64,000 nt of DNA from Amnibacterium sp. (GTDB taxonomy: Bacteria > Actinomycetota > Actinomycetes > Actinomycetales > Microbacteriaceae): positions 1 to 64,000 of the forward strand of contig NZ_JAODBE010000004.1 in the NCBI RefSeq assembly GCF_025463795.1, read 5' to 3'. Below are positions 6,721-10,427 of the stretch, piece after piece. Below the pieces are notes generated by a model. It did no database searches. It saw nothing but the letters and a program-made list of their open reading frames with translations, and had not been told where the DNA came from. Position 1 is the stretch's first letter. Every line of letters starts with the position of its first letter. The position numbers and the translations under genes are program-made.

Positions 6721-7584
6721 GTGAGCGAATTGACCCACCGCGAGTTGAGAGAGATCGACGCTGCGAACGCGTCTGATCTACCTCCGGTCGCGTTCATCCA
6801 CGGCTTGTGGCTGCTGTCGAGTAGTTGGGACAGGTGGCGCAAGCACTTCGAGGCGCAGGGCTACAGCACCATCGCCCCGGGGTGGCCCGATGACCCTGAG
6901 ACGGTCGCGGAAGCGAAGCAGGACCCGTCCGTGTTCGCGCACAAGATGATCGGCGTCGTCACTGATCACTATCTGGACGCGATCAGCCGCTTGACGAGAA
7001 AGCCAGCAGTGGTCGGGCACTCGTTCGGGGGTCTGATCGCACAAAAGATCGCGGGCGATGGAGTTTCCGCCTCGACCGTCGCCATCGACCCTGCGCCCTA
7101 CCGAGGAGTGCTTCCCGTTCCGTGGTCGGCGCTGAAGTCAGGGGCGCCCGTGCTCGGCAACCCAGCGAACGCTGGCCGAGCTGTAGCGCTGACCTTCGAT
7201 CAGTTTCGATTCGGATGGACCAACGCGCTTCCGGAGGAGGAGGCCCGGCAGCTGTACGACGAGTACCACGTCCCAGCCGCGGGCGCTCCCCTCTTCCAGG
7301 CCGTCACCGCAAATGTCAACCCGTGGACAGAGGCGCAAGTCGACATCCGAAACGCCGACCGGGGGCCGCTGCTCATCATCGCGGGGCAAGCCGACAACAC
7401 CATCCCACTGGCGATCACGCACGCGATGTTCAAGCTGCAGCAGAAGAACCCAGGTCTGACCGAAATCGCCGAGATCCCGAACCGCGGACACGCCCTCACC
7501 ATCGACCACGGCTGGAAGGAGGTAGCGGACGCCGCACTCAGCTTCATCGCACGCACCCTCAGCCCGGCCAGTCCCGTCCGCTGA
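6721..7584 (+). CDS. Alpha/beta hydrolase
   Basis: VAFIHGLWLLSSSWDRW, nucleophile elbow GHSFGG, C-terminal NRGHALTIDHGW. Confidence 0.85.
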   Translation: MSELTHRELREIDAANASDLPPVAFIHGLWLLSSSWDRWRKHFEAQGYSTIAPGWPDDPETVAEAKQDPSVFAHKMIGVVTDHYLDAISRLTRKPAVVGHSFGGLIAQKIAGDGVSASTVAIDPAPYRGVLPVPWSALKSGAPVLGNPANAGRAVALTFDQFRFGWTNALPEEEARQLYDEYHVPAAGAPLFQAVTANVNPWTEAQVDIRNADRGPLLIIAGQADNTIPLAITHAMFKLQQKNPGLTEIAEIPNRGHALTIDHGWKEVADAALSFIARTLSPASPVR

Positions 7585-9111: not shown

Positions 9112-9212
9112 AGCGGGCCACTCTTTCCCTCTTCAGCCGACACCAGTCATGACCACATCCGCGATTTTCCGCGGCTCCCGTAACTGTCCAACACCCCACA
9201 GCACGCCGGGGC

Positions 9213-9239
9213 GAGTTCGAGCTCTACTACGGCGTCTAG
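9213..9239 (+). repeat. attR-like repeat (displaced glnA 3' end)
   Basis: GAGTTCGAGCTCTACTACGGCGTCTAG reads E F E L Y Y G V stop but is not preceded by any glnA sequence. Confidence 0.72.
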
Positions 9240-9248
9240 CCCGCCGCC

Positions 9249-9311
9249 CCGTCGGGTCGCGGTTCGGGACGCTCCATCGGTCTGATGGCGTCCTGAACTG
9301 CGACCCGACGG
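9249..9311. repeat. Palindromic repeat copy 1 flanking DUF559 gene (24-bp arms)
   Basis: ccgtcgggtcgcggttcgggacgc / gcgtcctgaactgcgacccgacgg with two G-T positions, 15-nt loop. Confidence 0.85.
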
Positions 9312-10250
9312 TCACAGCACCCCGCGAGCGCGAAGCCGCCGACGGACGCGCTCGATCAGGGCAGCCCTGCGCGCTCCGAAGAGGTCGTCGGCGGTGACAC
9401 GGATGACCTCCCATCCGGCGTCGCGGAAGCGTTCGTAACGCTCGATGTCGTAGCGGAACTGATCGCGGTCGATCCGGTGCCCGTCCCCCTCGTACTCGAG
9501 CACCAGCCCTGCGCTACGCCAGACGAGGTCTGCGTGACCGAGGACCTCGCCCAGGGAGTCGGTGACCGGAGCGTTGAGCTCGGGAGCAGGGACACCCGCC
9601 CGGGTGAGCAGCAGACGCACCCGCGTCTCCCCCGGTGAACGCGCGCCTCCACGGGCCTCCTCGAGCGCGGCCAGGAGGTTCGCCGCCCCGATCCGTCGCG
9701 TCCCACGGATCCGCCCGCCGAGGACGGCGCGCGCTGCCGCCTCATCGAGGGGCGCGTGCTCCAGAAGATGGTCGGCGACGACGATCGCCTCGTCGAGCGT
9801 CAGCTCGTCCCCGAGCTGGCACCACGCCTCGCTCGCGACGCAGACGGGGAGACCCTCGAGCGTCTGGACGAGCGGGGTGATCGACAGCCGATGGCCGACC
9901 GCGCCGGCAGCACGCGGCGGCATGTGCGGGCGGACCGCGCAGACGTGGACGGGCGATACGGCCTCCATGCGAGCAGGCAGCGGCAGGCCGTGCAGCAGCG
10001 CCGCGGTCGCGTGGCTGAAGGCCTGCCCCGGTCGGAGCCGCACGGCGTAGGCGCGGCATGCCTCGTGGATCGTCGCCGGCGTCGACGTGACCTGGACGCC
10101 TCGGAACGGACGTGAGACGTCACGACGCTTGAGGCGCCCCTCGGTCATGCCGGTGAGGCGGAGGGCTGAACGGTCGAACGGGACGTCGGCGAGATGCGGT
10201 GGAAGCGGCCTGGGGGTACGCACGCGGGAAGGATGGCCGACACGGCACAT
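9312..10250 (-). CDS. DUF559 (Vsr-like endonuclease domain) / AbiEi-like protein
   Basis: C-terminus GHADLVWRSAGLVLEYEGDGHRIDRDQFRYDIERYERFRDAGWEVIRVTADDL; N-terminus RPFRGVQV...RPGQAFSHATAALLHGLPLP. Confidence 0.85.
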   Translation of the reverse strand: MCRVGHPSRVRTPRPLPPHLADVPFDRSALRLTGMTEGRLKRRDVSRPFRGVQVTSTPATIHEACRAYAVRLRPGQAFSHATAALLHGLPLPARMEAVSPVHVCAVRPHMPPRAAGAVGHRLSITPLVQTLEGLPVCVASEAWCQLGDELTLDEAIVVADHLLEHAPLDEAAARAVLGGRIRGTRRIGAANLLAALEEARGGARSPGETRVRLLLTRAGVPAPELNAPVTDSLGEVLGHADLVWRSAGLVLEYEGDGHRIDRDQFRYDIERYERFRDAGWEVIRVTADDLFGARRAALIERVRRRLRARGVL

Positions 10251-10368
10251 GTTCGCGCCGCTCTTCCACAGGCCGTCGGAGGCGACGACTCGCGGCGCAG
10301 CTCGAGACGCTCCGCGGGAAGTGAAGCGTCGGGAACCGCGACGCGAGACCGAGCGCTGGTGGCGGTGG

Positions 10369-10413
10369 CGCAGTTCGGGACGCTTCCCGGCGGAGCCGGC
10401 GTCCCGAACTGCG
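10369..10413. repeat. Palindromic repeat copy 2 flanking DUF559 gene (perfect 15-bp arms)
   Basis: cgcagttcgggacgc (10369-10383) / gcgtcccgaactgcg (10399-10413); degenerate half copy at 10326-10345. Confidence 0.87.
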
Positions 10414-10427
10414 ACGCGAACGCGTCG

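Follow-up and report, generated by a model that had tools for sequence, protein, structure and literature searches.

A 64,000-nt stretch of Amnibacterium sp. DNA (hereafter the window) carries, next to glnE, a gene for a 312-aa nuclease-like protein with palindromes on both of its sides, raising the question of whether the gene and the palindromes form a functional unit. An earlier note, made from the window's sequence, had proposed a palindrome-gene cassette reminiscent of RAYT-REP logic or of a homing or defence element. RAYTs are single, distinctive genes (PMC3116915), and the published traits of REP/RAYT systems include palindromes flanking both sides of the gene, co-evolution of the two, fast evolution of the gene, and dependence of the palindrome copies on a cognate gene (PMC2817692). 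REP copies also lie near convergent gene ends (PMC3733652). We therefore compared the window locus and its relatives with these traits.

Results

The window nuclease gene lies among three palindromes

Table 1. Features of the nuclease locus in the window
Feature	Position	Strand	Description
Palindrome copy 1	9249-9311	none	Arms of 24 nt that mismatch at 2 positions, loop of 15 nt; adjoins the nuclease stop codon
Nuclease gene, 312 aa	9312-10250	-	Predicted winged-helix/AbiEi-like N-terminus and Vsr/EDxHD-like (DUF559/MTES_1575) nuclease C-terminus
Palindrome copy 2	10296-10346	none	Degenerate, both arms present; 46 nt 5' of the nuclease start codon
Palindrome copy 3	10367-10415 (core 10369-10413)	none	Core arms perfect over 15 nt, loop of 15 nt; lies between copy 2 and the glnE stop (10428)

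Copies 1 and 3 confirmed that the same palindrome family is present on both sides of the gene, and both were also recovered by a genome-wide pattern search. The degenerate half copy reported earlier at 10326-10345 proved to be a complete, if degenerate, palindrome: its left (10296-10311) and right (10322-10346) arms both fall in the same repeat families as the other copies, so that the gene has two copies upstream and one downstream. The two upstream copies lie in tandem (10296-10415), 73 nt apart, and at another locus (L207 1818-2184) four palindromes form a tandem array with a spacing of about 105 nt; both arrangements recall REP clusters. Paralogues of the nuclease in the window genome carry palindromes of their own, different from those of the window.

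The hairpins of copies 1 and 3 out-folded all 200 shuffled sequences on both strands (z -3.8 to -9.0). Copy 1 folded at -48.8 kcal/mol in the gene's own minus-strand transcript and at -55.5 kcal/mol in plus-strand RNA. The mismatches of copy 1, which had been read as G-U pairs that preserve the RNA hairpin, do pair in this way in the antisense (plus-strand) RNA but are unpaired in the gene's own transcript. Inspection found no T-run 3' of the window hairpins, and thus, though strong, they do not have the form of classical intrinsic terminators.

The glnA-glnE gap is variably occupied in Amnibacterium

In relatives, the gap that corresponds to the window locus is flanked by convergent glnA (plus strand) and glnE (minus strand). 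The earlier placement of the cassette between these two genes is accurate for that gap; in the window itself, that glnA is reduced to roughly its last 9 codons, near 9212-9239, and another glutamine synthetase gene lies beyond glnE. The synteny comparison that the earlier note had called for revealed empty, occupied, replaced, and remnant states within the genus. Genomes G016 and G159 have an empty gap, G000 has the window cassette in it, and G293 retains a remnant, while in G255, G097, and G210 it is occupied by a distant AbiEi/DUF559-like gene (judged by reading the G255 and G210 sequences) with other palindromes. The brackets of this distant gene are CTTCGGCAGGC double palindromes (L124 330-418 and 1394-1476; L127; L128). 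To the left of the glnA remnant the window continues into unrelated DNA, and a similar junction occurs at about 240-270 of L128; these junctions could stem from an integrative element that makes use of the 3' end of glnA, or from a join made in assembly.

The protein resembles an EDxHD homing endonuclease

Searched alone against Pfam, the window protein matched MTES_1575 (E 0.004) and DUF559 (E 0.03), both under the curated cut-offs; among 28 relatives, MTES_1575 was detected in 24 and DUF559 in 19 at E 0.01 or better. An AlphaFold2 model of the protein was confident (pLDDT 93.3), and its most specific Foldseek match was the catalytic domain of the EDxHD homing endonuclease I-Bth0305I (PDB 3r3p; E 0.025, probability 1.00, TM 0.70 by target length). 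No Foldseek match in the PDB fell below E 0.001, and the higher-ranked entries were mitoribosome proteins with poor TM. A PDB profile search by sequence returned 3r3p as its second match (E 0.04). Residues E208, D241, H258, and D268 are among those invariant across the nuclease family, and they may constitute the EDxHD motif of a putative active site. Neither Pfam searches of the relatives nor the fold comparison gave a match to a Y1/HUH tyrosine transposase. The Vsr-like DUF559 nuclease assignment made earlier agrees with the relatives' Pfam matches and the EDxHD-like fold; the AbiEi resemblance of the N-terminus is weak (E 0.02).

Of 247 genomes sampled from the class Actinomycetes, 204 carry the protein family. 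In Rathayibacter the nuclease gene evolves faster than its neighbours, the nuclease being 80% identical between G172 and G045 against 94% for the median gene. The cassette palindromes measure about 50-65 nt, and an EDxHD enzyme has been found to bind as a dimer to a target of about 60 bp (PMC3943268); by analogy, a dimer of this kind would suit a palindrome of this length.

Matching palindromes bracket family genes well beyond the window

We assembled 93 non-redundant loci, nearly all from Microbacteriaceae, out of 100 family genomes, Rathayibacter and Naasia genomes, and named genomes, the last searched for homologues with a 4-member alignment. A gene was counted as bracketed when each of its ends had, at a distance of up to about 300 nt, a palindrome that shared a word of at least 10 nt with one at the other end. 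Bracketing was first seen by eye and the criterion was set afterwards, with palindrome thresholds looser than in the first looks; the same thresholds were applied to 4131 control intervals drawn from the flanks of longer loci. Matched palindromes were present on both sides at 52 of the 93 nuclease loci, an approximate rate because a few pairs depend on short or GC-rich words, compared with 13 of the 4131 control intervals; at the other 41 loci no matched pair was found. Genes of this family are thus strongly enriched for matched palindromes, a test in line with one that the earlier note had proposed. Bracketing was also seen in other families of the class, at 34 of 55 loci, a set without controls of its own.

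Each lineage carried a palindrome of its own, and palindrome similarity tracked protein identity among the matched-pair loci. A 9-nt word was common to all 18 pairs at 70% identity or more and to 11% of pairs at 30-40%, a co-variation of which shared ancestry by itself would explain part. With these counts from Microbacteriaceae and from the rest of the class, and with the scattered copies that accompany the cognate nuclease, the palindrome-gene cassette proposed for the window is supported, and we have almost no doubt that the association between palindrome and nuclease is real.

Scattered copies accompany the cognate gene

Genome-wide copy numbers were obtained by pattern searches. The exact core of the Rathayibacter palindrome occurred 83 times in G045, 87 times in G172, and 38 times in G222, with zero matches to the reversed control, and was found in 11 of 400 family genomes. 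When up to 3 mismatches were allowed, the five genomes counted held 98 (G045), 93 (G172), 50 (G222), 28 (G302), and 4 (G116) copies. The cognate nuclease was found at 100% identity in G172, 85% in G045, 79% in G222, and 81% in G116, and no nuclease above 50% identity was found in G302, G264, G331, G358, or G384. Exact copies numbered one in G264 and zero in G331, G358, and G384. There are exceptions in opposite directions: G116 has few copies despite its orthologue, and G302 has its 28 copies without one. Arms were perfect in 208 of the 241 copies of G172, G045, and G222 but in 10 of the 28 in G302; G116 (1 of 4), which was outside this comparison, does not fit the pattern.

A second palindrome, TGTCCCACTT from Microbacterium, showed the same linkage, occurring in 6 of 35 named genomes, all six of which carry the cognate cassette, and in none of the 29 others. 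The cognate locus was already known in five of the six; in the sixth it was predicted from the spacing of the copies and then confirmed as a family gene lying between two copies at a distance of 1077 nt from each other. At the stringency used, the pattern search gave 5 copies of the window palindrome in the window genome, of which the window locus accounts for two, and none in the 16 other genomes searched, six of them from the same genus. The f25 palindrome was considered as another high-copy family and rejected, as it has 0-2 exact copies per genome, indicating that high copy number is not general. The nuclease gene is essentially single-copy per palindrome family, while the palindromes reach about 98. 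Scatter with no link to DUF559 genes, which would have spoken against a cassette, was thus not what we found: the copies are scattered, but they track their cognate nuclease.

Rathayibacter copies lie at convergent gene ends and have constrained outer arms

By a GC3-based gene call, 29 of the 34 copies examined were intergenic. Neighbouring genes were convergent for 22 of the 27 copies with both neighbours called, whereas convergent gaps made up 23% of gaps in two 200-kb stretches; the resulting P = 2e-10 is optimistic, since the 34 include overlap duplicates, cassette copies, and a few Naasia copies. At these convergent ends, the scattered copies sit 10-30 nt beyond stop codons.

The Rathayibacter palindrome consists of fixed 12-nt outer arms, an 8-nt inner stem that is variable but co-varying, and a 15-nt loop. 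We compared ten ortholog pairs between G172 and G045, including both cassette copies and leaving out one tandem-array pairing of uncertain register. Differences fell at 3 of 240 outer-arm, 41 of 160 inner-stem, and 26 of 150 loop positions, with some bias toward conserved arms, because the search pattern for copies covered the 8 outermost nt of both arms. Inner-stem pairs 16-18 were paired in 64-66% of 50 copies from one genome compared with 43-46% after shuffling, with the kinship of the copies uncontrolled, and the hairpin itself therefore appears to matter.

All dispersed copies with synteny between G172 and G045 were present at the same site in both, and we saw no recent spread between these two Rathayibacter species among them. 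At one Rathayibacter site, the palindrome is missing from G264, the single clear absence, and decayed in G384. At one orthologous site (G172:C1:1183481 and G045:C1:841608) the loop motif stands in opposite orientations, which looks like an inversion of the palindrome in situ; read by eye, loop orientation in G222 showed no obvious strand bias. Rathayibacter also contains a further repeated near-palindrome, GATCTCGATACGCCCGC...GCGGGCTACTCGATCAGC, upstream of site 2 (L190, L194, L195), and about 270 nt of L173 (about 7279-7550) match dozens of places in several Rathayibacter genomes and may be a dispersed repeat or encode a protein domain that recurs.

Discussion

The locus shares several traits with REP/RAYT systems: a distinctive, fast-evolving, single-copy gene between palindromes, co-variation of palindrome and protein, and extragenic scatter of the palindrome near convergent gene ends, linked to the cognate gene. 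It also differs from them. The stems are longer, the palindromes occur in either relative orientation, and copy numbers are usually far lower, the many-copy extragenic scatter typical of REPs being seen in Rathayibacter (50-98 copies) but less so in the window genome (5) or for f25 (0-2). Inspection of the window and Rathayibacter copies revealed no GTAG or CGTC tag at the foot of the palindrome. Above all, the enzyme is a Vsr/EDxHD-like nuclease, whereas RAYTs are Y1/HUH transposases, which places the system outside REP/RAYT membership. The RAYT-REP analogy drawn earlier thus applies to the way of working and fails as a classification. The C-terminal nuclease fold is shared with the EDxHD homing endonuclease I-Bth0305I and with Vsr/DUF559 proteins; in contrast to that homing endonuclease, the window gene is intergenic rather than within an intron or intein and has palindromes on both sides, and the cleavage activity of its product is predicted. 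Full and empty glnA-glnE sites both exist. Our literature search, with most subscription journals outside its reach, found no published account of a DUF559/Vsr-like nuclease or a RAYT with such palindromes, in agreement with the earlier note, which knew of no such pairing.

We consider it probable that gene and palindromes form a REPtron-like cassette with an unrelated enzyme at its core, working by the mechanism outlined below. This reading draws on the matched bracketing, the lineage-specific co-variation, the scattered copies linked to a cognate gene, and the constrained outer arms; from these we infer that the protein binds and cleaves the palindrome and spreads or keeps up its copies. Recognition of its own palindrome by the protein is putative but likely, and a role in spreading or maintaining the copies is also putative, with the balance tipping slightly in its favour. 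In the proposed mechanism, a nuclease dimer would read the outer arms, and the nuclease domain would nick or cut at the palindrome, either in double-stranded form or as an extruded or single-stranded hairpin. Repair or replication might then copy the palindrome to new sites or keep old sites intact. Most surviving copies would be those between converging genes, where a hairpin may do no harm or may serve as a terminator.

Alternatively, the protein could be chiefly a DNA- or RNA-binding regulator, an AbiEi-like autorepressor with a secondary nuclease domain. The palindromes would then act as its operators and as hairpin terminators, with scattered copies marking a set of transcript ends under its regulation. 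At least one copy lies in the promoter region and another directly after the stop codon, scattered copies follow stop codons at short distance where genes converge, the hairpins fold strongly, and the outer-arm constraint resembles that of a binding site. The invariant nuclease-domain residues would be unexpected if catalysis were unimportant, however, and copy numbers that differ between related species, from 0-1 up to almost 100, are unusual for operators, so that we regard this explanation as unlikely, though one to be taken seriously. A plainer alternative, that the palindromes are ordinary intergenic terminators or chance palindromes unlinked to the gene, agrees with the hairpins formed by scattered copies at convergent gene ends, but it is scarcely credible given the excess of matched pairs over control intervals, the lineage specificity, and the restriction of the TGTCCCACTT and window families to genomes with the cognate gene; we rejected it on the control intervals and genome counts.

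The presence, absence, and replacement states of the glnA-glnE gap, together with the homing-endonuclease-like fold, would also fit joint movement of the gene and its two palindromes, in the manner of an insertion sequence or a free-standing homing element. The palindromes would then form the ends of the element, and solo palindromes would be leftovers. We think this improbable because a gene that is single-copy per family contrasts with up to about 98 palindromes, and because hardly any copies occur in phage or plasmid records; the flanks of the glnA-glnE gap are too diverged to give exact insertion ends, and a target-site duplication was not established. A phage or plasmid origin likewise found little support: matches came from 1 phage record and 3 plasmid records, none of which reached 35% identity. 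AbiEi proteins bind inverted repeats, and the weak AbiEi resemblance and the nuclease fold could suggest a defence or self-recognition nuclease, acting in AbiE-like abortive infection or restriction, with palindromes that mark self DNA. Unlike AbiE, the window protein has a nuclease domain and its gene is flanked by palindromes on both sides; by inspection, no AbiEii toxin gene adjoins it, its neighbours being glnE and the glnA remnant. The gene is almost solely chromosomal, and no PADLOC match was better than E 0.02, so the defence reading raised earlier gained nothing and appears very improbable. In the copy-rich genomes G172, G045, and G222, a Y1 RAYT is a possible other source of the copies.

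Returning to the REPtron-like cassette, we give even chances to its broadest form, a second, independently evolved palindrome-propagating system in which widespread Vsr/EDxHD-like nucleases of Actinomycetes recognise lineage-specific bracketing palindromes and seed or maintain copies at gene ends. If these enzymes do spread or maintain palindromes, REP-like biology would have arisen at least twice, with unrelated enzymes. Through the association, many loci of an orphan nuclease family that is very common are already tied to a specific DNA sequence, which supplies a candidate substrate for a large set of differing enzymes, each nuclease-palindrome pair being a natural case of protein-DNA specificity. 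Together, these data suggest that many Actinobacteria carry a system, so far undescribed, which operates in the manner of REP/RAYT elements but with an unrelated enzyme; if so, many of their genes now annotated as DUF559/AbiEi-like hypothetical proteins would acquire a function.
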